Made by a program: the position numbers and the translations under genes | NCBI RefSeq assembly: GCF_013402875.1 | Contig: NZ_CP058579.1 | Coordinates: 806,001 to 870,000 of the forward strand | Length of the DNA: 64,000 nt | DNA from: Halorarum salinum | GTDB lineage: Archaea > Halobacteriota > Halobacteria > Halobacteriales > Haloferacaceae | Direction of reading: 5' to 3' | In this document: positions 19,195-32,077 of the stretch, piece by piece | Position numbering within the stretch: position 1 is the stretch's first letter | Layout: every line of letters starts with the position of its first letter | Notes under the pieces: model-generated | Databases searched by the model: none | The model's input: the letters and a program-made list of their open reading frames with translations, nothing else | What the model was told of the DNA's origin: nothing

Positions 19195-20598
19195 TCAGTC
19201 TGCCGTTCCCACGCCCGACACGGCGTTCGCGGCCCGCCGGAGCATCCCGTTGTCCGTCGAGTACCGGAAGTACGCACAGAGGCCGACCGCCGCGACGACG
19301 TTCGAGACGGTGACCGCCCAGAACGGTCCGAGCGCGCCGTAGCCGAACCCGAACGCGAGGATCGCCGCGACGGGGACGCGCACCGTCCAGTACTGCAGCA
19401 TCGTGGAGTACATCGAGATCCTCGTCTTGCCGGCGCCGTTGAAGCCGGCCTCGACGGTGTAGATGGCGCCGAGCGCCCAGTAGCCCAGCGCGAGGATCTG
19501 CAGGTACGCGATCGTGTACTCGAGCGTCTGCCCCGAGATGCCCGGGACGAACACCTCCGCGAGGAGGCCGGGGACGAACCACTGGACGACCCCGAGGACG
19601 CCGACGCCGACCGCGCCGACCCCCACGCCGAGCCACGTCGCCCGCGTGGCCCGGTCGGGGCGCTGTGCGCCGAGGTTCTGCCCCACCAGCGTCGTCCCGG
19701 CGGAGCCGACCGCCCCCGCCGGAACGAAGGCGACGGTGGAGATGCGCGCGCCGACGGTGTAGGCCGCGAGCGCGGCGCCCCCGCCCGTCACGGAGATGAC
19801 GGCGACCATGACGAGGCGGGCGACCTGCCGGGCCGCCCCCTGCCCGGCCTTGGGGGCGCCGACGTCGACCAGTTCGCGGAACTCGTCCGCGTCGAGGCCG
19901 ACGGCGGCACGGGTCATGTGGAATCCGCCGCGGTTCGAGACGGCGACGGCGAGCGCGATGGCCAGTCCGACCGCGTACGCGATGAGGGTGGCGTAGGCGG
20001 CGCCCGCGATGCCGTAGGCGTCGAAGCGCCACCAGCCGAACATGAGGAACGGGTCGAGGACGACGTTCACGACGACGGCGACGAGGTTCACGACGAGCGG
20101 CGTCCGGGAGTCGCCCGATCCCACGAACGCGGCCTCCATCGCGTCGCTCATGCCGCTGACGGTGAAGGAGAACACCATCGTTCCGAGGTAGATCGCGGCG
20201 AGGACGGCCACCTCCCCCTCGGGGTTGAACAGTCGGGTGACGTCGAGCGCGAAGACGTTGACCAGGGTCGCGAGCGACGCCCCGACCACGCCGGCGCCGA
20301 CGAGCCCGTGGAACGCGGCCCGGCGCGCCCCCGCCACGTCGCCGCGCCCGACGCGCTGGGAGACGACGATCTGGCTCCCCAGGAACACGGCCATCGTCCC
20401 GGCGCCGAACAGGCCCAGAACCGGCATGACGAGCCCGACGGCCGCGACCGCGTCCCCGCCGAGCCGGCCGATCCAGAACACGTCGATCACCTGCTGGGCG
20501 ACCAGCGCGAGCTGCTGGGCGACGATCGGTATCGAGAGGTAGGCGAGCGCTCTCCCCAGCGAGCCCTCGGTGATGTCCTCCGACGAGACGTCGAGCAT
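19195..20598 (-). CDS. MATE family efflux transporter
   Basis: A 467-residue, 12-helix multidrug and toxic compound extrusion (MATE) exporter. It has the two-fold MATE repeat: N-half IPIVAQQLALVAQQVIDVFWIGRLGGDAVAAVG and C-half GAPKAGQGAARQVARLVMVAVISVTGGGAALAAYTVG. The family's GQNLGA element appears as VGQNLGAQRP. Expected to extrude cationic drugs or metabolites using Na+ or H+. ATG 20598 begins MLDVSSEDITEG; a TATA-like tttattgatg lies about 27-36 bases upstream on the minus strand. Tail-to-tail with uvrB, 28 bases apart. Confidence 0.92.
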   Translation of the reverse strand: MLDVSSEDITEGSLGRALAYLSIPIVAQQLALVAQQVIDVFWIGRLGGDAVAAVGLVMPVLGLFGAGTMAVFLGSQIVVSQRVGRGDVAGARRAAFHGLVGAGVVGASLATLVNVFALDVTRLFNPEGEVAVLAAIYLGTMVFSFTVSGMSDAMEAAFVGSGDSRTPLVVNLVAVVVNVVLDPFLMFGWWRFDAYGIAGAAYATLIAYAVGLAIALAVAVSNRGGFHMTRAAVGLDADEFRELVDVGAPKAGQGAARQVARLVMVAVISVTGGGAALAAYTVGARISTVAFVPAGAVGSAGTTLVGQNLGAQRPDRATRATWLGVGVGAVGVGVLGVVQWFVPGLLAEVFVPGISGQTLEYTIAYLQILALGYWALGAIYTVEAGFNGAGKTRISMYSTMLQYWTVRVPVAAILAFGFGYGALGPFWAVTVSNVVAAVGLCAYFRYSTDNGMLRRAANAVSGVGTAD

Positions 20599-20810
20599 CC
20601 GGTATCATTCGTGACTCCAGCACCATCAATAAATCAGTGTCGATACGTGCCACACTTTAGGAAGTTCACATTTGCTGCTGTCATGTCCCGGTGGCTCGAC
20701 CTTCCGGCGCCGACGATCGAGTCGGCGGTCTTCGGGGCGTCCGGCCACGCTCGACGCCCGGCCACCCCGGACATCCGCACCCTTTTGCCGCAGGCCACGA
20801 AGTGATTCGT

Positions 20811-21761
20811 ATGAGCAGTCGGCGCCGCAAGCCTGACTGGCTGAAGATGCGCCCGCCCGCGGGCCAGCGCTTCACCGACATCAAGTCGACCCTCCGCGAG
20901 CACGACCTCCACACAGTGTGTGAGGAGGCCAACTGCCCGAACCTGGGGGAGTGCTGGTCGGGAGGCGAGGGCCCCGGCTCCGGCCCGGGCACGGCGACGT
21001 TCATGCTGATGGGCGACCGGTGCTCGCGCGGCTGCAACTTCTGTGACGTGGAGACCGGCGGGATGGAGCCGCTCGACCCCGACGAGCCGGCGAACGTCGC
21101 GAAGGCGGTCGCCGAGATCGGCCTCGAGTACGTCGTGCTCACCTCCGTCGACCGGGACGACCTCGCGGACGGCGGCAGCGCTCACTTCGCCGAGACCGTT
21201 CGGGAGATCAAGCGGCGCGACCCGGGGACGCTCGTCGAGGTGCTCGTCCCGGACTTCGGCGGCGACGAGGCCGCGGTTCGCCGCATCGTCGAGGCCGAAC
21301 CGGACGTGATCGCGCACAACGTCGAGACGGTCGAGCGCCTGCAGTGGCCGGTCCGCGACCGGCGGGCGAACTACGGCCAGACGCTCGACGTGCTCGAACA
21401 GGTGAGCCTGGAGTCGGACGTCTATACCAAGACGAGCGTGATGCTCGGCCTCGGCGAGTACGACCACGAGGTGTACCGGACGCTGCGGGACCTGCGGGAG
21501 GCCGACGTGGACATCGTCACCCTCGGCCAGTACCTCCAGCCGTCCCGCTCGCACCTCGACGTGTTCGAGTACGTCCACCCGGACGTCTTCGAGACGTGGC
21601 GCCGGGTCGCGGAGTCGGAACTCGGGTTCCTCTACTGTGCCTCCGGGCCGATGGTCCGCTCCTCGTACAAGGCCGGCGAGTTCTTCGTCGAGGCGCTGGT
21701 CCGCGAGGGCCGGAGCGTCGAGGAGGCGCGGGCGCACGCCCGCGCCGCGAGCGGCGATTGA
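20811..21761 (+). CDS. lipA: Lipoyl synthase (radical SAM)
   Basis: A 316-residue lipoyl synthase that inserts two sulfurs into the octanoyl chain on lipoyl domains. The auxiliary [4Fe-4S] motif is CEEANCPNLGEC (Cys37, 42, 48) and the radical-SAM motif is CSRGCNFC (Cys71, 75, 78). The C-terminal substrate region ends SSYKAGEFFVEALV, including the family's RSSY serine that binds the auxiliary cluster. Start ATG 20811; the longer frame to 20691 is Pro/His/Arg-rich and unrelated, and ccttttgcc lies ~27 bases upstream of the chosen start. Position just ahead of the E1/E2 genes fits its job of activating the E2 lipoyl domain. Confidence 0.96.
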   Translation: MSSRRRKPDWLKMRPPAGQRFTDIKSTLREHDLHTVCEEANCPNLGECWSGGEGPGSGPGTATFMLMGDRCSRGCNFCDVETGGMEPLDPDEPANVAKAVAEIGLEYVVLTSVDRDDLADGGSAHFAETVREIKRRDPGTLVEVLVPDFGGDEAAVRRIVEAEPDVIAHNVETVERLQWPVRDRRANYGQTLDVLEQVSLESDVYTKTSVMLGLGEYDHEVYRTLRDLREADVDIVTLGQYLQPSRSHLDVFEYVHPDVFETWRRVAESELGFLYCASGPMVRSSYKAGEFFVEALVREGRSVEEARAHARAASGD

Positions 21762-22004
21762 CGAGTCTTCCGGCGTCCATCCGACCCGCGTCCGCTCCCG
21801 CTTCTCACGTCCGGTTCGCTCCCGCTCGCCCCCCTGCGCCTCCTCCCGCTCGCTCTCATCCATCGTTTGTCAAAAATCAGGCGGGATTTCTCACCGTCGG
21901 TCGACGAGGCGGCGCTCCGACCGCCCAGAACTTTACACCGTGTGATTTTCGCGCCCTACGATGGACAGGTCGGCGTGCCGAGGCAGTATTTCTGCCCACA
22001 GTAA

Positions 22005-22014
22005 ACTATTTACG
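22005..22014 (+). promoter_or_regulatory. TATA box of the E1-alpha/E1-beta/E2 operon
   Basis: The sequence actatttacg within a longer AT-rich run (22001-22020) predicts transcription start near 22035-22040 and a leader of about 30 bases. Confidence 0.55.
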
Positions 22015-22053
22015 AAAACACTATTGCGAGGGCGGGCAAGGTTTCTCGTATGC

Positions 22054-22062
22054 GAAGGAGGG
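22054..22062 (+). promoter_or_regulatory. Shine-Dalgarno sequence for the E1-alpha GTG start
   Basis: The sequence gaaggaggg, complementary to the anti-SD at the 3' end of the 16S gene in this window (cacctcct), lies four bases before GTG 22067. It fixes that start in a long upstream-open frame. Good SDs are the exception in this mostly leaderless genome. Confidence 0.75.
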
Positions 22063-22066
22063 CACC

Positions 22067-23182
22067 GTGAGTACGCTCGAGCGCGACCCCCGCGAGAGCA
22101 TGGTCCAGGTCCTCGACGAGGACGGGAGCGTCGTCGGAGACGTCCCCGACGTCGGCGACGACGAACTCGTCGAGATGTACCACAACATGAAGCTCGCCCG
22201 GCACTTCGACACGCGGGCCGTCTCCCTCCAGCGGCAGGGCCGCATGGGGACGTATCCGCCCCTGTCGGGCCAGGAGGGCGCCCAGGTCGGCTCCGCGATG
22301 GCGCTCGCGGAGGGCGACTGGACGATCCCCTCCTACCGCGAACACGCCGCCAACCTCGTCCGTGGCATGGGTCTCGAACGGACGCTGCGCTACTGGATGG
22401 GCGACGAGCGCGGCAACTCGCCGCCGGAGGGCGTCAACGTCTTCACGGCAGCGGTCCCGATCGCCTCCCAGATCCCGCACGCGACGGGGATGGCGTGGGC
22501 GGACAAGCTGAAGCACGGCGGCGACCCGGAGAACGCCTACATCTGCTACTTCGGCGACGGCGCGACCTCGGAGGGCGACTTCCATGAGGGGTTGAACTTC
22601 GCGGGCGTCTTCGACACGCCGAACGTCTTCTTCTGTAACAACAACCAGTGGGCCATCTCGGTCCCGCGCGAACGACAGACCGCCTCCGAGACGCTCGCCC
22701 AGAAGGCCGTCGCGTACGGCTTCGAGGGCGTCCGCGTCGACGGGATGGACCCGCTCGCCGTCTACTCGGTGACGTCCGACGCGCTCGAGAAGGCGAAGTC
22801 GCCCGGCGAGGGCGAGCGCCGGCCGACGCTCGTCGAGGCCGTACAGTACCGCTACGGCGCACACACCACCGCCGACGACCCGTCGGTGTACCGGACCGAC
22901 GAGGAGGTCGAGCGGTGGAAGGCGAAGGACCCGATCCCGCGGCTGGAGGCGTTCCTCCGGAACCAGGGGCTGCTCGACGACGAGCGGGTCGACGCCATCG
23001 AGGAGGCCGTCGAGGAGGAGGTCGCGGCCGCCATCGAGGAGGCCGAATCGACCGCCCGCCCCGACCCGAGCACGATGTTCGAGCACGTGTTCGAGGAGGC
23101 ACCCCCGGACCTGGCCGAGCAGGCCGAGGAGTTCGCGGCGATCCGCGAGAAGTACGGCGACGAGGCGTTCCTCGAGGAGTGA
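22067..23182 (+). CDS. pdhA: Pyruvate/2-oxoacid dehydrogenase E1 component, alpha subunit
   Basis: A 371-residue TPP-dependent E1-alpha. With E1-beta it decarboxylates a 2-oxoacid and transfers the acyl group to E2 lipoate. The TPP motif runs from GDGATSEG (163-170) to CNNNQWAIS (190-198). The catalytic loop region YRYGAHTTADDPSVYR (with the phosphorylation-loop-like HTTADD) is present. GTG 22067 is supported by an ideal Shine-Dalgarno; the frame is open far upstream but that part is non-homologous. Two bases separate it from E1-beta. Haloarchaea carry several such complexes whose substrate (pyruvate or branched-chain) cannot be told from sequence. lipA upstream fits any of them. Confidence 0.92.
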   Translation: MSTLERDPRESMVQVLDEDGSVVGDVPDVGDDELVEMYHNMKLARHFDTRAVSLQRQGRMGTYPPLSGQEGAQVGSAMALAEGDWTIPSYREHAANLVRGMGLERTLRYWMGDERGNSPPEGVNVFTAAVPIASQIPHATGMAWADKLKHGGDPENAYICYFGDGATSEGDFHEGLNFAGVFDTPNVFFCNNNQWAISVPRERQTASETLAQKAVAYGFEGVRVDGMDPLAVYSVTSDALEKAKSPGEGERRPTLVEAVQYRYGAHTTADDPSVYRTDEEVERWKAKDPIPRLEAFLRNQGLLDDERVDAIEEAVEEEVAAAIEEAESTARPDPSTMFEHVFEEAPPDLAEQAEEFAAIREKYGDEAFLEE

Positions 23183-23184
23183 CA

Positions 23185-24186
23185 ATGAGCACCCAAGAAT
23201 CCGAAGCGACGCAGAACCTCACGCTGGTACAGTCGGTCCGGGACGCGCTCGCGACCGAGATGGAACGGGACGACGACGTCCTGGTCATGGGCGAGGACGT
23301 CGGCAAGAACGGCGGCGTCTTCCGGGCGACGGAGGGGCTCTGGAAGGAGTTCGGCGAGGACCGCGTCATCGACACGCCGCTCGCCGAGTCGGGCATCATC
23401 GGCACGGCCGTCGGCATGGCCGCGATGGGGTTGAAGCCGGTGCCGGAGATCCAGTTCTCCGGGTTCATGTACCCCGGCTTCGACCAGATCGTCTCGCACA
23501 TGGCGCGTCTGCGCACCCGGTCGCGGAGCCGGTTCACCCTCCCGATGGTGCTGCGGGCGCCCTACGGCGGCGGCATCCGCGCGCCGGAACACCACTCGGA
23601 GTCGAAGGAGGCGTTCTACGCTCACGAGGCCGGGCTGAAGGTGGTCATCCCCTCGACGCCGTACGACACGAAGGGGCTGCTCACCTCGGCCATCCGCGAC
23701 CCGGACCCGGTCGTCTTCCTCGAGCCGAAGCTCATCTACCGCGCGTTCCGGGGCGACGTGCCCGAGGGGGACTACGAGGTGCCCATCGGCGAGGCGTCGG
23801 TCCGCCGCGAGGGGAGCGACGTGTCGGTGTTCACCTACGGCGCGATGACCCGGCCGAGCCTGGAGGCCGCCGAGGAGCTCGCCGAGGAGGGCGTCGACGC
23901 CGAGGTCGTCGACCTCCGGACCGTCTCGCCGATGGACCGCGAGGCCATCGTCGAGTCGTTCAAGAAGACCGGCCGCGCGTGCGTCGTCCACGAGGCGCCA
24001 AAGACCGGCGGGCTGGCGGGCGAGATCACCGCCACCCTGCAGGAGGAGGCGCTGCTGTACCAGGAGGCGCCGATACAGCGCGTGACGGGCTACGACGTGC
24101 CGTACCCGCTGTACGCGATGGAGGACTACTACATGCCCAACGCGGCCCGCGTGGCCGAGGGAATCAAGGACGCCGTGGAGTTCTGA
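23185..24186 (+). CDS. pdhB: Pyruvate/2-oxoacid dehydrogenase E1 component, beta subunit
   Basis: A 333-residue transketolase-like beta subunit pairing with the upstream alpha subunit. Family blocks: VLVMGEDVGKNGGVFRATEGL (residues ~32-52, with the Glu that activates TPP), DTPLAESGIIGTAVGMA, PEIQFSGFMYPGFDQI, LRAPYGGGIRAPEHHSES, and the C-terminal DVPYPLYAMEDYYMPN. A C-terminal transketolase domain has VIDLRT-like VVDLRTVSPMD. ATG 23185 follows the alpha stop by two bases, and the next gene starts one base after this stop: tightly coupled translation. Confidence 0.94.
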   Translation: MSTQESEATQNLTLVQSVRDALATEMERDDDVLVMGEDVGKNGGVFRATEGLWKEFGEDRVIDTPLAESGIIGTAVGMAAMGLKPVPEIQFSGFMYPGFDQIVSHMARLRTRSRSRFTLPMVLRAPYGGGIRAPEHHSESKEAFYAHEAGLKVVIPSTPYDTKGLLTSAIRDPDPVVFLEPKLIYRAFRGDVPEGDYEVPIGEASVRREGSDVSVFTYGAMTRPSLEAAEELAEEGVDAEVVDLRTVSPMDREAIVESFKKTGRACVVHEAPKTGGLAGEITATLQEEALLYQEAPIQRVTGYDVPYPLYAMEDYYMPNAARVAEGIKDAVEF

Positions 24187-24187
24187 G

Positions 24188-25819
24188 ATGGCGACGAAGG
24201 AGTTCAAACTCCCCGACGTCGGCGAGGGCGTCGCCGAGGGGGAGCTGGTAAACTGGCTCGTCGCGCCCGGCGACGCGGTCTCGGAGGACCAGCCGGTCGC
24301 CGAGGTCGAGACGGACAAGGCGCTCGTCGAGGTGCCGAGCCCGTACGACGGCACCGTGAAGGAACTGCTCGCCGAGGAGGGCGAGATAGTGCCCGTAGGG
24401 GAGGTCATCATCACGTTCACCGTCGGCGACGACGGCGACGCCGCCGGGGCGGGCGAGGAACCCGAGGAGGCGGAACCGGCCGCGGAGCCGGACTCGGAGG
24501 GTGAGACCGCCCCCGAATCGGTGCCGGAAGCCGAGGCGGAGGAGACGGCGCCGGCCGAGACCGACGCCCCCGAACCGACCGAGGGCCGCGTGTTCGCGCC
24601 GCCGTCGGCCCGTCGCCTCGCGCGGGAACTCGGCGTGGACGTCGCGGCGGTCGACGGCAGCGGCCCGGGCGGCCGCGTCACCGACGCCGACGTGCGCGCC
24701 CACGTCGAGTCCGGCGGGACGGCCGACGCGGCCGACGCCGACGCGGAGGCCGAGTCCGCGGGGCCCAAGGACGTCGACGTTGGGTCGTCCGAACCGGCCG
24801 CGACGCCCCGCGACACCGACGGTGCGGCGGGTGGAACGAGCGCGGGCGACGGGGCCGCGTCCGCCGCCTCGACGTCGCCGGCGGGGCGCGAGCGAACCCT
24901 CGCGGCGCCCGCGACCCGGCGGGCCGCCGAGGAGGCGGGCGTCGACCTGGACGACGTGCCGACCGACGAGACGCGCGAGGGCGAGGCGTTCGTCACGGCC
25001 GAGCAGGTGCAGCAGTACGCCGACGCGGTGACGGCCGCGAAGGAGGCCGATGCGGGCGCTGCAGGCGCCGCGGACGCGACGGCCGGTGCCGGCGCCGCTG
25101 CCGGCGAAGGGGCCGCGGCCGGCGGCGACGAGACGGTGCCGTACCGCGGCGTCCGCCGGACCATCGGGAGGCAGATGGAGGAGTCGAAGTACACCGCGCC
25201 GCACGTCTCCCACCACGACACGGCCGTCATCGACGACCTCGTGGAGGCGCGTGCGGAGCTGAAGGAGCGCGCCGCCGAGCGGGACGTGAAGCTCACCTAC
25301 CTCCCGTTCGTGATGAAGGCGCTCGTGGCCGGGCTGAAGGAGTTCCCGTACCTCAACTCCGAGCTCCGGGAGGACGACGAGGAGATCGTCCTGAAGAAGG
25401 AGTACAACGTGGGCGTCGCGGTCGCCACCGACGCCGGACTGATGGTGCCGGTGGTGAAGGACGTGGACGGGAAATCGCTGCTCGAACTCGCCGAGGAGGT
25501 CACCGACTTCGCGGACAGGGCGCGGGAGCGGAAGCTCTCCCGCTCGGAGATGCAGGGCGGGACGTTCACCGTCACGAACTTCGGCGCCGTCGGCGGCGAG
25601 TACGCCACGCCGATCATCAACTACCCCGAGACGGCGATCATGGGGCTGGGCGCCATCGAGCAGCGCCCCGTCGTGGAGGACGGCGAGGTCGTGGCCGCCC
25701 ACACGCTCCCGCTCTCGCTGTCGATCGACCACCGCGTCATCGACGGCGCGGTCGCCGCGCGGTTCACGAACTACGTGATGGAGTATCTGGAGAACCCGCA
25801 GCTCTTATTGCTGGAGTAA
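24188..25819 (+). CDS. pdhC: Dihydrolipoamide acyltransferase (E2)
   Basis: A 543-residue E2 core. The N-terminal lipoyl domain has the lipoylation site ETDKALVEV (Lys44). It is followed by an Ala/Glu-rich linker and a peripheral subunit-binding domain at ~135-172 (PSARRLARELGVDVAAVDGSG). A second PSBD-like segment lies at ~236-282 (APATRRAAEEAGVDLDDV), again flanked by Ala/Gly linkers. The catalytic domain ends in SIDHRVIDGA, the HxxxDG active site. Usual E2 proteins have one binding domain. The start overlaps the E1-beta region by context (atggcg one base after tga). The E3 gene (lpdA), normally next, is absent here. Confidence 0.94.
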   Translation: MATKEFKLPDVGEGVAEGELVNWLVAPGDAVSEDQPVAEVETDKALVEVPSPYDGTVKELLAEEGEIVPVGEVIITFTVGDDGDAAGAGEEPEEAEPAAEPDSEGETAPESVPEAEAEETAPAETDAPEPTEGRVFAPPSARRLARELGVDVAAVDGSGPGGRVTDADVRAHVESGGTADAADADAEAESAGPKDVDVGSSEPAATPRDTDGAAGGTSAGDGAASAASTSPAGRERTLAAPATRRAAEEAGVDLDDVPTDETREGEAFVTAEQVQQYADAVTAAKEADAGAAGAADATAGAGAAAGEGAAAGGDETVPYRGVRRTIGRQMEESKYTAPHVSHHDTAVIDDLVEARAELKERAAERDVKLTYLPFVMKALVAGLKEFPYLNSELREDDEEIVLKKEYNVGVAVATDAGLMVPVVKDVDGKSLLELAEEVTDFADRARERKLSRSEMQGGTFTVTNFGAVGGEYATPIINYPETAIMGLGAIEQRPVVEDGEVVAAHTLPLSLSIDHRVIDGAVAARFTNYVMEYLENPQLLLLE

Positions 25820-25821
25820 CC

Positions 25822-25865
25822 GGTTTCTGCTTCCGTTAGTTGTTCTCCTCTTCATCTCTCTCCTT
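25822..25865 (+). terminator. T/C-rich terminator of the E1-E2 operon
   Basis: Directly after the E2 stop the coding strand carries repeated T-tracts (tttctgcttcc, gttgttctcctcttc). This is the kind of U-rich signal archaeal RNA polymerase uses without a hairpin. Confidence 0.4.
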
Positions 25866-25887
25866 CCGTCCTCGATAGTACCGTAGT

Positions 25888-26075
25888 GACGACCGCGAAA
25901 GCCCACGCGGCCCCTTTCAGTCCCACCCTGCCTCGCCCTCCCCAGCCTCCTGCGATGCTCGCTCGCTCCACTCGCTGCGCTTCTCGTCCCTCGCACGCGT
26001 CCGGCTGACACTACCCGGGACCGAAGGTCCCGTGAGATCACCCTCGCTCGCGTGATCGAAGGTCAGCCGGCACGT
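25888..26075 (+). repeat. Dispersed intergenic repeat, copy C
   Basis: Begins accgcgaaagccc like copy A but joins directly to the ccctttcagtcccaccct block, lacking A's inner segment. It then shares ctcgtccctcgc-cgcgtccggc and the cgggacc-triloop-ggtcccg hairpin (loop gaa) with copy B, followed by a second, longer pairing (gatcaccctcgctcgcgtgatc). Confidence 0.7.
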
Positions 26076-26116
26076 GCCACCGCGGTGTCACTACGTTTCC
26101 CACCGCGAGGGAGGGA

Positions 26117-26338
26117 GGCGGGGCGAAGCCCCGCCGACCGAGCGAGCGGCCTTTTGGCACCGACGAGCAAAGCTCGTCTTGCGGCCAGAAACCGTCGGTT
26201 TCTGGCAGCATTACGGGAAATCTTCGATCTCCCGTCAGCAGTGGGATTCCGGAGGAATCCCACAGCATGAACGGGTTTTGCCGGGGGTCGACGAGCGAGC
26301 GCGCCTCCGGCGCGCGAGCGAGGACGCCCCCGGCAAAA
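26117..26338. repeat. Row of six triloop hairpins inside a larger inverted repeat zone
   Basis: Six near-perfect hairpins, each with exactly three loop bases. In order: 26117-26135 (8-bp stem, loop gaa); 26162-26178 (7 bp, aaa); 26184-26206 (10 bp, gtc); 26214-26234 (9 bp with one mismatch, ttc); 26241-26263 (10 bp, gga); 26299-26315 (7 bp, tcc). The last sits inside an outer 12-bp stem (ttttgccggggg near 26275-26286 with its complement 26326-26337). All stems differ in sequence, so structure rather than sequence is repeated. Confidence 0.75.
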
Positions 26339-26347
26339 GAGGTTCGT

Positions 26348-27082
26348 TCAGAATCCCTCGACGTGCGGCCGGAGGTCCAGTTCCAGCGTCCACGCGCTCC
26401 GGTCCTGCTCCACGAGCCGCCAGTACGTCTCGGCGATGGCGTCGGGGTCGAGGTACTCGTCGGCGTCGTCCGACGCGCCGGGCGGGCGGATGCCGCCGTC
26501 GACGACGACGTGCGCGACGTGGATCCCGTCGGGCCCGAGTTCGCGCGCCATCGACTCCGCGAGGCCGCGCGACCCGAACTTCGCCATCGAGAAGCCGACC
26601 GCGCCCTTCCGCCCGCGGACGGACGTGGTCGCGCCCGTGAAGATGATCGTTCCGCCGTCGCCGTCGCCGGTTCCGCCGGGATTCGCCCGGCTCTCCGGGG
26701 CGCTCCGCGCCTCGCCGAGCATGTCCCGCACCGCCTCCCGCGAGCAGAGGAACCCCGCCCGCGGGCCGACCTCGTACGCCCGGTCGAACGCCTCGCGGTC
26801 GGTCTCCAGCAGCCCGGTCCACGATGCGACGCTCGCGTTGTTCACCAGCACGTCCACCGGGCCCAGTTCGTCCCGGACCGTCTCGAACGCCGCCTCGATC
26901 TCGTCGGGTTCGGAGAGGTCCGTCGGCACGGCGACCGCCTCGGTCGGGAGGTCGTCGGAGAGGTCGCGGAGGAAGCCCCCGCTGCGGGCGAGCAGCGCGA
27001 GCCGACAGCCCTCGTCCGCGAACGTCCGCGCGATCGACTCCCCGAGGCCGGGCCCGACGCCGGCGATGACAGCCGTCTGCAT
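26348..27082 (-). CDS. SDR-fold oxidoreductase-like protein, catalytic Tyr replaced by Phe
   Basis: A 244-residue Rossmann protein of the short-chain dehydrogenase/reductase superfamily. The nucleotide-binding GVGPGLG is at residues 8-14 and NNAS at 81-84. The catalytic tetrad is altered: the usual YxxxK appears as Phe164-S-M-A-Lys168 (GFSMAKFG), preceded by FTGATTSVRG. I recall a bacterial SDR subgroup with FxxAK and the same HVAHVVVDGGI ending, so the change is probably shared by the subfamily rather than a recent mutation. Activity cannot be assumed. ATG 27082 precedes the Rossmann motif directly; the longer frame is repeat sequence. Confidence 0.82.
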   Translation of the reverse strand: MQTAVIAGVGPGLGESIARTFADEGCRLALLARSGGFLRDLSDDLPTEAVAVPTDLSEPDEIEAAFETVRDELGPVDVLVNNASVASWTGLLETDREAFDRAYEVGPRAGFLCSREAVRDMLGEARSAPESRANPGGTGDGDGGTIIFTGATTSVRGRKGAVGFSMAKFGSRGLAESMARELGPDGIHVAHVVVDGGIRPPGASDDADEYLDPDAIAETYWRLVEQDRSAWTLELDLRPHVEGF

Positions 27083-27182
27083 GGTCGTTCGGTGGCGCGC
27101 GGACGGCAAAGCCGTTCGGGCGCTCGCGACCCGTGCCCGGTCGCGCTCGAACGACGTAGGTCGGACGCGTCGGCAGCGGGGG

Positions 27183-27217
27183 TGGCGCGCGGCGGCCGCG
27201 CCTCGGTCACGCGAGCG
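27183..27217 (-). repeat. Dispersed intergenic repeat, fragment D (inverted)
   Basis: These 35 bases are the exact reverse complement of 14034-14068 in copy B, 13 kb away; homology fades on both sides. Confidence 0.8.
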
Positions 27218-27473
27218 GGGTGAGTTCCGAGGAGCTCGCTCCGAGGTAACTGGCGGACTCCATCCTGTAAGCAGTAGTGATCTGCCCCCTGCACCAGCCG
27301 ACCTGACCGAAAACCAGTCCGGAGACACGAGCGAGCGAATCGGCTGGGGAGGATTGGGGCTCCCATCACGCTCGGGAGTAGTGACTCGTTTGTTCACACG
27401 GAAACTGGAGACGCGCTCCTCGAGGACCCTCCGACCGGCCTCGACCGCGCCACGGACTCCCGAACAATCGAGC

Positions 27474-27483
27474 GGTTTAACAG
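27474..27483 (+). promoter_or_regulatory. TATA-like element of valS
   Basis: The sequence ggtttaacag is centred about 31 bases before ATG 27510, consistent with leaderless transcription. Confidence 0.55.
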
Positions 27484-27509
27484 CGGCTCGCGGGTACTAC
27501 CTCCCACGA

Positions 27510-30191
27510 ATGCCCAGTGGAGACTACGACCCCGAGGCCGTCGAGCCGAAGTGGCAGCGGCGCTGGGTCGAGACCGACACCTACGCCTACGACGAGGACG
27601 CGGCGACGGACCCGAACACGACCTTCTCCATCGACACGCCGCCGCCGACCGTATCGGGCAGCCTCCACTGGGGCCACGTGTACGGCTCCATCCTCCAGGA
27701 CACCGTCGCGCGGTACAACCGCATGCGGGGCCAGGAGGTGTTCTTCCCGTTCGGCTACGACGACAACGGCATCGCCTCCGAGCGGCTGACCGAGGAGGAA
27801 CTCGACGTTCGCCACCAGAACTACGAGCGACGGGAGTTCCAGCAGCTCTGCCGCGAGGTCTGTGAGGGGTACGAGGCCGAGTTCACCGAGAAGATGCAGG
27901 AGCTCGGCATCTCCATCGACTGGAACCAGACGTACCGGACCATCGAGCCGCGGGTCCAGCGCATCTCGCAGCTCTCCTTCATCGACCTGTACGAGCAGGG
28001 CCGCGAGTACCGCGAGAAGGCGCCCGCCATCTGGTGTCCCGAGTGCGAGACGGCCATCTCGCAGGTCGAGACCGAGGACGACGAGCGGGACAGCCACTTC
28101 CACGACATCGAGTTCACCACGGTCCGCGAGGGCGAGCCGTTCACCATCTCCACGACTCGGCCGGAGCTCCTGCCCGCCTGCGTCGCCGTGTTCGTCCACC
28201 CGGACGACGACGAGAACCAGCACCTCGTCGGGGAGGAGGCGACGATCCCGCTGTTCGGTCAGGAGGTGCCCATCATCGCCGACGACCGCGTGGACATGGA
28301 GACTGGTTCCGGCATCGTGATGTGCTGTACGTTCGGGGACCAGACCGACATCGAGTGGTACCAGGCCCACGACCTCGACCTCCGAATCGCCATCGATGAG
28401 TCGGGCCACATGACCGGCGTCGCGGAGGAGTACGAGGGGCTCGGTTCCGCGGAGGCCCGCGAGGCCATCGTGGCGGATCTGGAGGAGGCCGGCGCGCTGC
28501 TCGACCGCCGCGCCATCACCCACACCGTCAACGTCCACGAGCGCTGCGGGACGGGCGTCGAGTTCCTCGTCACCGAGCAGTGGTACGTGAAGATCCTCGA
28601 CCGGACCGACGAGTACCTCCGGGCGGGCCGGGAGATGGAGTGGTTCCCCGAGAAGATGTTCACCCGCTACCAGCACTGGATCGAGGGGCTCCAGTGGGAT
28701 TGGCTCATCTCGCGCCAGCGCTCCTCGGGCATCCCGTTCCCGGTCTGGTACTGCGGGGAGTGCGGCGGGGTCGTCGTCGCCGAGAAGGCCGACCTGCCGG
28801 TCGACCCGCTCTCGGACGACCCGCCGGTCGACGCCTGTCCCGAGTGCGGGGGCGAGGGGTTCGAACCCGAGGACGACGTGCTCGACACGTGGGCGACCTC
28901 CAGCCTGACGCCGCTCATCAATTCGGGCTGGGACTGGAACGAGGAATCCGAGCGGTTGGAGATGGCCCACCCCGAGCTGTATCCGATGGACGTGCGCCCC
29001 CAGGGCCACGACATCATCAGCTTCTGGCTGTTCCACACCGTCATCAAGTGCTACGAGCACACCGGCGAGGTGCCGTTCGAGTCGACCATGATCAACGGGA
29101 TGGTGCTCGACGAGAACCGCGAGAAGATGTCCAAGTCGAAGGGGAACGTCGTCGCGCCCGACGAGGTGCTCGCGAAGTACCCCGTCGACGCCGCGCGCTA
29201 CTGGGCGACCGGCTCGGCGGTCGGCGACGACCTCCCGTACCAGGAGAAGGGGCTACGCGCGGGCGAGAAGCTGATGCAGAAGCTCTGGAACGCCTCGAAG
29301 CTCGTCGACTCGCTCACCCCCGACGAGGACCCCGACCTCGCCCCCGAGGACCTCCGGGAGCTCGACCGCTGGCTGCTCGCCGAACTCGACGACCTCGTCG
29401 GGACGCTCACCGACCAGTTCGAGCGCCGCGAGTTCTCGAAGGCCCGCGACGGCCTCCGGAGCTTCTTCTGGCACACGTTCTGTGACGACTACCTCGAAGT
29501 GGCGAAGACGCGGGTCCGGGACGCGGACGACGATTCCGAGGCGGCAACGGACGCCGCAGGGGGCGACCCGGCCGCCCAGTACACCCTCCGGGTCGCCCAC
29601 CGGCGGTTCCTGAAGCTGTTCGCGCCGTTCCTCGCCCACGAGACGGAGGAGCTGTGGCAGGAACTGTACGCGGACGCCGGCGTGGAGGAGGGCGGCTCCG
29701 TCCACCGGGCCGACTGGCCCGAACCGCTCGGGGTCGAGGCCGACCGGGCCGCGGGGCGGACCGCGACGGCGGTCATCGGGGCGCTGCGGCGGTACAAGAG
29801 CGAGCGCGGCCTCCCGCTGAACGCCGAACTCGGCCGCGTCGAGGTGTGGGGCGAGGGCGACGTCGCCGCCTTCGCCGACGACGTGCGCGGCGTGATGAAC
29901 GTCGCGGACCTCGACGTGCTGGCCGAGGAGCCCGAGATCGAGTCGGTCGTGACCGGCGTCGACCTCGACTACTCGCGGGTCGGCCCGCAGTTCGGCTCGA
30001 AGGTCGGCGACATCGACGCGGCCATCGCCGACGGCGAGTACGAGGTGGAGGACGGCGACCTCCGCGTCGCGGGCGAGACGCTCGGCCCCGAGCTGTTCGA
30101 GATCGAGCGCGAGCGACGGTACGCCGGCGAGGGCGACCTGCTCGAGGCGGGCGACGCGATCGTCGTCGTCCACGGCGACGGCGGGAACTGA
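27510..30191 (+). CDS. valS: Valyl-tRNA synthetase
   Basis: An 893-residue class Ia synthetase charging tRNA-Val. HIGH motif as HWGH (SGSLHWGHVYG, ~residue 50); CP1 editing domain with STTRPELLPACVAVFVHP and TGSGIVMCCTFGDQTD, which hydrolyses mischarged Thr; KMSKS at about 539-543 (REKMSKSKGN). Zinc ribbons: WCPECE..., and CGECGG paired with CPECGG. The anticodon-binding domain (SKARDGLRSFFWHTFCDDYLEVAKTRV) and a C-terminal extension follow. ATG 27510 gives the standard archaeal N-terminus (DYDPEAVEPKWQRRW); the frame is open upstream through non-coding sequence. Confidence 0.97.
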   Translation: MPSGDYDPEAVEPKWQRRWVETDTYAYDEDAATDPNTTFSIDTPPPTVSGSLHWGHVYGSILQDTVARYNRMRGQEVFFPFGYDDNGIASERLTEEELDVRHQNYERREFQQLCREVCEGYEAEFTEKMQELGISIDWNQTYRTIEPRVQRISQLSFIDLYEQGREYREKAPAIWCPECETAISQVETEDDERDSHFHDIEFTTVREGEPFTISTTRPELLPACVAVFVHPDDDENQHLVGEEATIPLFGQEVPIIADDRVDMETGSGIVMCCTFGDQTDIEWYQAHDLDLRIAIDESGHMTGVAEEYEGLGSAEAREAIVADLEEAGALLDRRAITHTVNVHERCGTGVEFLVTEQWYVKILDRTDEYLRAGREMEWFPEKMFTRYQHWIEGLQWDWLISRQRSSGIPFPVWYCGECGGVVVAEKADLPVDPLSDDPPVDACPECGGEGFEPEDDVLDTWATSSLTPLINSGWDWNEESERLEMAHPELYPMDVRPQGHDIISFWLFHTVIKCYEHTGEVPFESTMINGMVLDENREKMSKSKGNVVAPDEVLAKYPVDAARYWATGSAVGDDLPYQEKGLRAGEKLMQKLWNASKLVDSLTPDEDPDLAPEDLRELDRWLLAELDDLVGTLTDQFERREFSKARDGLRSFFWHTFCDDYLEVAKTRVRDADDDSEAATDAAGGDPAAQYTLRVAHRRFLKLFAPFLAHETEELWQELYADAGVEEGGSVHRADWPEPLGVEADRAAGRTATAVIGALRRYKSERGLPLNAELGRVEVWGEGDVAAFADDVRGVMNVADLDVLAEEPEIESVVTGVDLDYSRVGPQFGSKVGDIDAAIADGEYEVEDGDLRVAGETLGPELFEIERERRYAGEGDLLEAGDAIVVVHGDGGN

Positions 30192-30213
30192 GCCGGCGTC
30201 TCGAACCCCTCTT

Positions 30214-31272
<1,059 letters not shown>

Positions 31273-31332
31273 CGGCCACACCCACGGCTGGCGGGGGTTT
31301 GAACGCGCCGACTCCGTCCTCGGGGTCCGCTC

Positions 31333-31530
31333 TCAGAAGTCGTGTTCGACCTCGTCCGGGTCCGCGGCCTGGATGATGATCTTCCCGTCGCGGACCCGAA
31401 CGAACACCTCGTCGCCGATCTCGAGGCCCGCAACGGCGAGTTCGTCCTCGTGCAGGTTGACGTGGACGTTGTGGTACTCGCCGTTCTCGTCTTTGGCGCC
31501 ACTCGGGCTGAGCGTCTTTTTCCGGACCAT
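31333..31530 (-). CDS. Small AbrB-like (SpoVT/AbrB fold) protein
   Basis: A 65-residue acidic protein whose NLHEDELAVAGLEIGDEVFVRVRDGKIII core has the swapped-hairpin AbrB pattern (alternating beta strand, LxxGDxVxV, then a second strand). In AbrB proteins this fold forms DNA-binding dimers or antitoxins. The basic start (MVRKKTLSPSGAK) could contact DNA. No toxin gene is adjacent: pyrD lies 60 bases downstream and MC1 diverges upstream. A TATA-like cacttatgtattcc lies about 31-44 bases upstream on the minus strand. Regulator of unknown target. Confidence 0.75.
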   Translation of the reverse strand: MVRKKTLSPSGAKDENGEYHNVHVNLHEDELAVAGLEIGDEVFVRVRDGKIIIQAADPDEVEHDF

Positions 31531-31719
31531 CGGCTTGGTTACACCACGCTTCGCCGCACGGAATACATAAGTGTTGTTTCCGGCACGGAGCCGACGAACG
31601 GCGCGCGCGAGCGAGGCGGGCCGCCGTACCCCGTCCTCGGCGCCGGGTTTCCGGGTCGAATCGACCGACGGCGCCTCCCTAGTACAAAAAACTTTCTTCG
31701 AATAGCCCTCACTTCCCCG

Positions 31720-31732
31720 ATATATTTATAAC
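31720..31732 (+). promoter_or_regulatory. Strong TATA box of the MC1 gene
   Basis: The sequence atatatttataac is the most canonical TATA element in the window and predicts a start near 31755. Consistent with high expression of an abundant chromatin protein. Confidence 0.7.
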
Positions 31733-31768
31733 ATAGTGTGTGCTGGCGTCACACGGAGGCGAAAAACC

Positions 31769-32077
31769 ATGGTACGAGAGGACGGTAAGCGAAATTTCGC
31801 ACTGCGCGAGACTGACGGTGGCGAGGAGAGCGTCTACTCGGGAAACACCCCGAGGCAGGCCGCGCTGAAGGCCGCACGGCGGCTCGACCCCGGCAGCTCG
31901 GAGGACGCGGCCGACCGGACGGAGCTCCGTCTCCGCGAGAAGGGGACCGACAAGGTCCACATCTACGACGGATGGGCCTGGCGCGAGACCGCGCCGGACA
32001 ACAAGCCGGACTGGATGCCCAGCGAGATCACGGAGGCGAACGTCTCGAAGAAGGGCATCGAACACCTCGAGAGTTAG
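31769..32077 (+). CDS. Non-histone chromosomal protein MC1
   Basis: A 102-residue architectural DNA-bending protein of the MC1 family known from Methanosarcina and haloarchaea. Conserved blocks: KRNFALRETDGGEE, VYSGNTPRQAALKAARRL (the PRQAALKAA signature), LRLREKGTDKVHIYDGWAW, and NKPDWMPSEI...VSKKGIEHLE. MC1 binds DNA as a monomer and kinks it sharply. ATG 31769 directly precedes MVREDGKRN; an ATG at 31736 lies too close to the TATA box to be translated. Situated just upstream of the rRNA operon on the same strand, with an independent promoter. Confidence 0.93.
   Translation: MVREDGKRNFALRETDGGEESVYSGNTPRQAALKAARRLDPGSSEDAADRTELRLREKGTDKVHIYDGWAWRETAPDNKPDWMPSEITEANVSKKGIEHLES

Follow-up and report, generated by a model that had tools for sequence, protein, structure and literature searches.

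The locus described here lies in a window of 64,000 nucleotides (the whole stretch of Halorarum salinum DNA that was analysed), between a short-chain dehydrogenase gene and a convergent frame that presumably encodes a relative of dihydrolipoamide acyltransferase (E2) (Table 1). A preliminary description of this DNA had reported six consecutive triloop hairpins between the two and had judged them to be beyond chance. Both points were confirmed by reading of the sequence and a scan for perfect stems: five hairpins have perfect stems of 7-10 bp, the sixth contains one mismatch, and all have 3-nt loops. The last is, as described, nested in a 12-bp outer stem (TTTTGCCGGGGG/CCCCCGGCAAAA). This block contains five triloop stems of 7 bp or more, whereas 1000 dinucleotide shuffles gave 0.035 on average and never more than 1. 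The fold of positions 26100-26360 has a z-score of -8.7 (RNA parameters) or -8.2 (DNA parameters), and none of 200 shuffles was equally stable. Across the whole window, element included, triloops make up 24 of the 128 stems of at least 7 bp and the distribution of loop lengths is flat. A coding region was considered and rejected because the frames overlapping the element are short and, by eye, specify no recognisable protein, in agreement with the non-coding character proposed earlier.

Table 1. Features of the hairpin locus, in window coordinates.
Feature	Position	Strand	Details
Convergent left neighbour	24188-25819	+	543-aa frame
Whole element, window copy	26103-26345		Left hairpin, T4, variable hairpin cassettes, long right hairpin
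Left module	26103-26155	+	CCGC...GCGG hairpin, inner stem GGCGGGGC(GAA)GCCCCGCC, then T4 (26152-26155)
Variable hairpin cassettes	26156-26264	+	Triloop hairpins 26162-26178, 26184-26206, 26213-26235, 26241-26263
Perfect triloop stems	26117-26135, 26162-26178, 26184-26206, 26241-26263, 26299-26315		From stem scan
Sixth triloop hairpin	26213-26235		3-nt loop, one A.C mismatch in stem
Right module	26265-26345	+	Outer helix GAAC (26269-26272)/GTTC (26342-26345)
Right module, inner parts			GGG/GAG internal loop; T4 (26276-26279)/A4 (26335-26338); GC stem
12-bp outer stem	26276-26287 (TTTTGCCGGGGG)		Pairs with CCCCCGGCAAAA; encloses last perfect hairpin
Right module, variable triloop tip	26299-26315	+	
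Stop codon (TGA) of anchored gene	26348-26350	-	2 nt past element edge
Anchored gene, short-chain dehydrogenase	26348-27082	-	Pfam PF00106, E-value 2.9e-30; start picked from reading frame

A different repeat is present at 25880-26005, immediately after the stop codon of the left neighbour, and has matches in many genomes across the family and the order (among the matches listed); part of it is retained at the orthologous site in the congeneric genome G001. By eye, positions 27265-27390 of the window are bounded by GTAGTGA-like motifs and resemble the flanks of the repeat at 25880-26090.

When positions 25800-26380 were used as a DNA query, many more places in the same genome and in relatives were found (among the matches listed) to carry all or part of 26100-26350. 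The hairpin block is one copy of a repeat family, with its right edge 2 nt from a stop codon. The elements are approximately 140-250 bp in length, and each of three congeneric genomes carries about 15-25 of them. A covariance model of the right module (E ≤ 1e-3) matched these genomes at least 27, 19 and 16 times, a few of these matches being one place on opposite strands; conservation in close strains, on which the preliminary description had let its reading depend, was therefore found. Across the taxonomic family the same model matched at least 27 of 170 genomes, with strong matches (among those listed) in the genus of the window, Halobaculum, Candidatus Halobonum and Halolamina, the latter three having fewer copies. 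Order-wide, 32 of 293 genomes matched at E ≤ 1e-5, many of them belonging to the taxonomic family f7, for which plasmid records point to Natrialbaceae; the Natrialbaceae relatives are low-copy. Because copies were collected by similarity to the window's right module, the set is biased towards intact right ends. Three matches (L105, L126 and L115) were left out for lack of a recognisable right edge, and L127+ and L131 for lack of an anchor.

All 101 matches listed for nine multi-contig genomes, from the window's genus and from Halobaculum, were on the largest contig, and about 12 would be expected elsewhere based on length (a hand count using rounded genome sizes, with three same-place rows removed). 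Relatives of the element in Natrialbaceae and one Halobellus are found on plasmids as well. A virus or plasmid origin of the window element was rejected, as the frame pattern occurred in none of the viral contigs and the element had no match among plasmid and phage records; an f7 relative used as query matched seven plasmid records and no phage records.

The copies can be described with respect to a general + strand order: a CCGC...GCGG hairpin with a triloop tip, one or two bases, TTTT-GGCA, zero to about five cassettes (usually AGCA-ended) and the right module, which itself reads TGAACGGG-TTTT, GC stem, variable tip hairpin and AAAA-GAG-GTTC. In the window copy the linkers between cassettes mostly end in GCA. 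Short copies have no middle hairpins, TTTTGGCA being joined directly to TGAACGGG, and loci L113, L163, L166 and L169 have cassettes other than those of the window. The cassette stems are unrelated in sequence to each other yet recur across copies: the ATCAGAACCGC and GTCAGAACGC cassettes of L113, from the window's genus, are also found in L163 and L166, with diverged versions in L169; these three loci belong to other families. Triloops close 113 of the 124 element stems of at least 6 bp, a count of stems from related copies that are not independent, and 90 of these 113 loops are GNA or TNC. Copies with the same cassette stem differ in their loop letters, but the loop length stays at three. Additional rearrangements were seen at individual loci. 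Extra palindromes nested in the right-module tip of L127 (2251-2380) extend it to approximately 130 nt, the whole interior of the right hairpin is inverted in L091 (1920-2001) and L097, the left hairpin is inverted in one L121 (-) copy, and tip loops occur in both orientations (GAA/TTC and GGA/TCC).

Covariance analysis, which the preliminary description had proposed, indicates that these stems covary, with paired changes exceeding both shuffled and slid controls. In alignment A1 (59 right modules, omitting L090-, L089 and L113 as fragments or odd parses), 94.5% of the tested helix cells are paired, and both sides have changed in 65 cells, compared with a mean of 19.3 in column shuffles and 5-13 in slid alignments. 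When rows from other families were added (A2), 97.8% were paired and 27 double changes were counted versus 1-3 in slid alignments. The edge helix, for example, is GAAC/GTTC in most rows, CGAC/GTCG in five and, in the 12 f7 and f4 rows, CAAC/GTTG with a single CAGC/GTTG. The block had been suggested to be a structured RNA, a cruciform substrate or a mobile-element remnant. It is structured, dispersed, covarying and present or absent between species, but it is not a degraded remnant, because 94.5% of helix cells still pair over 59 copies.

One part of the helix behaves differently. The four T-A pairs show no double changes in 59 rows, whereas columns 16, 18 and 21 of the same helix show 10, 12 and 19. 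Because of this difference from neighbouring pairs, TTTT and AAAA are fixed as sequence, and their constancy places a T tract on each strand. A T stretch with a hairpin, as in haloarchaeal terminators, is thus found both in the left module, where T4 directly follows the hairpin, and in the T4/A4 of the right module. The earlier statement that the hairpins are not a terminator row is unsupported by these T tracts, which are the non-covarying part of the element.

The fold is also strand-specific. On the + strand, the arms outside the tip pair through GA/AG steps in both left and right modules: counting Watson-Crick, GU and GA pairs, 82% (left) and 80% (right) of positions pair, compared with 53% for shuffled arms and with 49% (left) and 58% (right) on the - strand (percentages are sums of rounded fractions, with three mis-parsed left modules omitted). 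With RNA parameters the + strand is the more stable one in 51 of the 59 right modules and in 50 of the 52 left modules; with DNA parameters the counts are 53 and 45. GNA triloops, like tandem G.A steps, are particularly stable in DNA. The + strand, which folds better, runs antisense to the anchored gene.

Of the 65 copies with a recognised right edge (a subset of the covariance-model matches), 45 have this edge (GAGGTTC) at -2 to +5 nt relative to the neighbouring gene's stop codon, counting stops of converging frames of 110 codons or more. Fifteen further copies lie at +6 to +20, so that 60 of 65 are within 20 nt and five have no stop; random positions at the same loci gave 175 of 9368 (1.9%). 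Of the 15 copies at +6 to +20, 14 have a second GTTC adjoining the stop, resembling a newer edge placed next to the footprint left by an earlier one. At L121 and L129, older right-end remnants (GGACCCC...AAAAG) are present between the intact element and the stop, which looks like nested replacement. An annotated record points the same way: in that of Haloterrigena turkmenica pHTUR01, the base directly following the match is the last of a CDS. For families f7 and f4, the stop is at +2 in two of 12 inspected loci and at +18 in one more. Restriction of the element to convergent gene pairs was ruled out by the mixed left neighbours (27 convergent, 37 tandem and 1 unclear, based on a crude frame score).

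The anchored genes are ordinary, 18 of 20 proteins having a Pfam match, and have no obvious common theme. Their products include short-chain dehydrogenase, enoyl-CoA hydratase family, AMMECR1, KaiC-like, 2-oxoacid oxidoreductase beta, CarA, polyprenyl synthetase, aldehyde ferredoxin oxidoreductase, DNA polymerase subunit B domain, Cdc48, PhoU, ETF alpha, arginase family and TFB proteins. This diversity bears on whether the + strand might give rise to a regulatory non-coding RNA antisense to the anchored gene. Such an RNA would account for the better folding of that strand, its conserved GGG/GAG internal loop and its tandem G.A steps, but it is improbable given the lack of a theme among the genes and an Rfam scan of 20000-32000 in which no family reached gathering score. 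A known RNA family was rejected on the same scan, whose one hit, elsewhere, is at chance level.

The genes on the right flank fall into 28 groups, of which 20 have copies from at least two genomes. At the Cdc48-like and PhoU genes, elements are kept in several genomes even though the left flank of the window genome's copies is unmatched. Right modules at orthologous sites are 76.7% identical (33 pairs), compared with 75.3% for unrelated copies between genomes and 76.6% within genomes; for left modules, the values are 73.0% (orthologous), 71.6% (other between-genome) and 77.3% (within-genome). The flanking gene stretches of the right-flank groups are 78-96% identical (76-79% for a paralogous gene, L087). 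The best paralog exceeded the ortholog in 37 of 42 right and 29 of 35 left modules, but we rely on the mean identities because this count, which picks the highest of many paralogs, is biased. Position and fold therefore persist at the same gene and the sequence turns over.

Some of this turnover could be a passive by-product of replication, in which palindrome correction and template switching sharpen or flip inverted repeats in GC-rich intergenic DNA whose presence is unselected. The two orientations of the tip loops and the inverted hairpin interiors in L091, L097 and one L121 copy are of the kind that such events would leave. As an account of the whole element we consider it unlikely: dispersal with fixed frame sequences, the stop anchor, the constancy of T4/A4 and the cassettes common to different families (L113, L163) are left unexplained, and it is strained by the covariation and anchor data, so that it accounts for only part of the sequence turnover.

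Gains or losses were seen at three loci. In G001 the element is absent at the window locus, where the dehydrogenase stop aligns and the flank diverges immediately; no dehydrogenase orthologue was found in the second congeneric genome, G002. Two other copies of the window's genome, L080 (beside AMMECR1) and L095, are absent from both congeneric relatives. No clear target duplication is visible at the empty sites. These differences would be expected of a repeat that is mobile but non-autonomous (REP-, PATE- or MITE-like) and relies on a transposase acting in trans and recognising the folded + strand, in which case the stop position would reflect target choice or survival and the host would gain no function. 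Also consistent with mobility are the window's right module, 98% and 96% alike to two other copies in its genome, a strand-specific fold such as would be expected with single-stranded DNA transposases, the second GTTC footprints beside stops, and the plasmid-borne relatives in Natrialbaceae and Halobellus. On the other hand, a Y1_Tnp gene (PF01797) was found in none of the three genomes of the genus in a search whose positive controls worked, the matches keep to the largest contig (all 101, with about 12 expected elsewhere), and elements are retained for long periods at the same genes. Moreover, similarity among the 12 f7 and f4 relatives is limited to about -109 to +99 relative to the right module, except for a coding stretch common to L163 and L172; no common non-coding flank extends beyond the element, and a longer autonomous parent was rejected. 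Taken together, a purely mobile repeat is possible but rather less than likely.

The reading we favour, to which we give an even chance, is that the block, a member of a non-coding, modular, strongly structured repeat family at haloarchaeal gene 3' ends, serves as a bidirectional 3'-end module. The T4 on both strands would release RNA polymerase arriving from either side, and the hairpins would act as a barrier to RNA read-through and to 3' nucleases; with its base 0-5 nt from the stop, a hairpin could also retain a terminating ribosome or a 3' nuclease. In this way the element would shield the end of the gene and define where its mRNA ends, like bacterial REP/BIME, and copies may be renewed by recombination between copies or by re-insertion. 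Several observations count against a 3'-end module. The better-folding strand is antisense, which is odd for action in the gene's own mRNA, and most inspected f7 and f4 copies are not stop-anchored. The 3' UTR of Haloferax has a median length of 97 nt (PMC7237163, accessible part), so a T4 approximately 5-12 nt after the stop would be unusual. Finally, a plain selfish repeat could yield dispersal and gains without function.

Several described systems share features with this family. REP/BIME sequences of enterobacteria and pseudomonads are likewise multi-copy intergenic palindromic repeats, some near stops (accessible parts of PMC12306157 and PMC3733652); E. coli REPs no more than 15 nt from the stop are reported to reduce translation, and REP structures to protect mRNA (PMC12306157, accessible part). 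The copies described here occupy a similar position (45 of 65 at -2 to +5, 60 of 65 within 20 nt), but they are archaeal, modular units of 140-250 bp with an edge at the stop, triloops, GA-step helices and cassette arrays. A GTAG or CGTC tag is absent from the right-module consensus of 59 copies, and membership among REPs with RAYT was rejected because the three genus genomes have no Y1 (RAYT) gene. BOX elements of pneumococcus are modular as well, with a module at either end and middle units that vary in number; the middle units of the present family are hairpins of unrelated sequence. REP/BIME near stops and modular BOX repeats are closest in behaviour.

Going by the accessible part of PMC3119063, the nearest described haloarchaeal class is the PATEs of Haloquadratum walsbyi, which are also non-coding and palindrome-bearing without terminal inverted repeats. 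The edges CCGCGAG and GAGGTTC, with palindromes close to them, are similarly not mutual inverted repeats, and the window copy lacks the terminal inverted repeat that is a feature of MITEs. PATEs are, however, tied to IS605-type ends (same source), whereas the family described here has no Y1 in the genus, many internal hairpins and a stop anchor. At L164, the element is preceded by GATCAGTACAGC and followed by GCTGTACTGATC, which together make an inverted repeat (weaker at L161), possibly a terminal or target palindrome of the Natrialbaceae form. Terminators of Haloferax volcanii have T stretches and sometimes upstream hairpins but are single-site signals (PMC7237163, accessible part), in contrast to a homologous dispersed family with cassettes. 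Bacterial hairpin-cluster terminators also lie shortly downstream of stops, but in the accessible part of PMC8355165 they are neither a homologous repeat family nor archaeal. No description of this element family was found in the literature searched, which was mostly outside subscription papers.

A more tentative proposal, which we regard as doubtful, is that these elements form a class delivered to and rebuilt at stop codons, with inheritance of position and of the single-strand fold (triloops and tandem G.A helices of the antisense strand), whereas the sequence at a given gene is exchanged from species to species. As the targets have, by eye, no obvious motif in common but the stop, delivery would need to respond to where translation or the transcript ends. 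We know of no transposon that does so. The family provides a countable case of a repeat locked to archaeal gene ends, where 3'-end formation is poorly understood, and the paradox of same gene, same fold and different sequence offers a direct test between selection on structure at the stop and repeated re-delivery.
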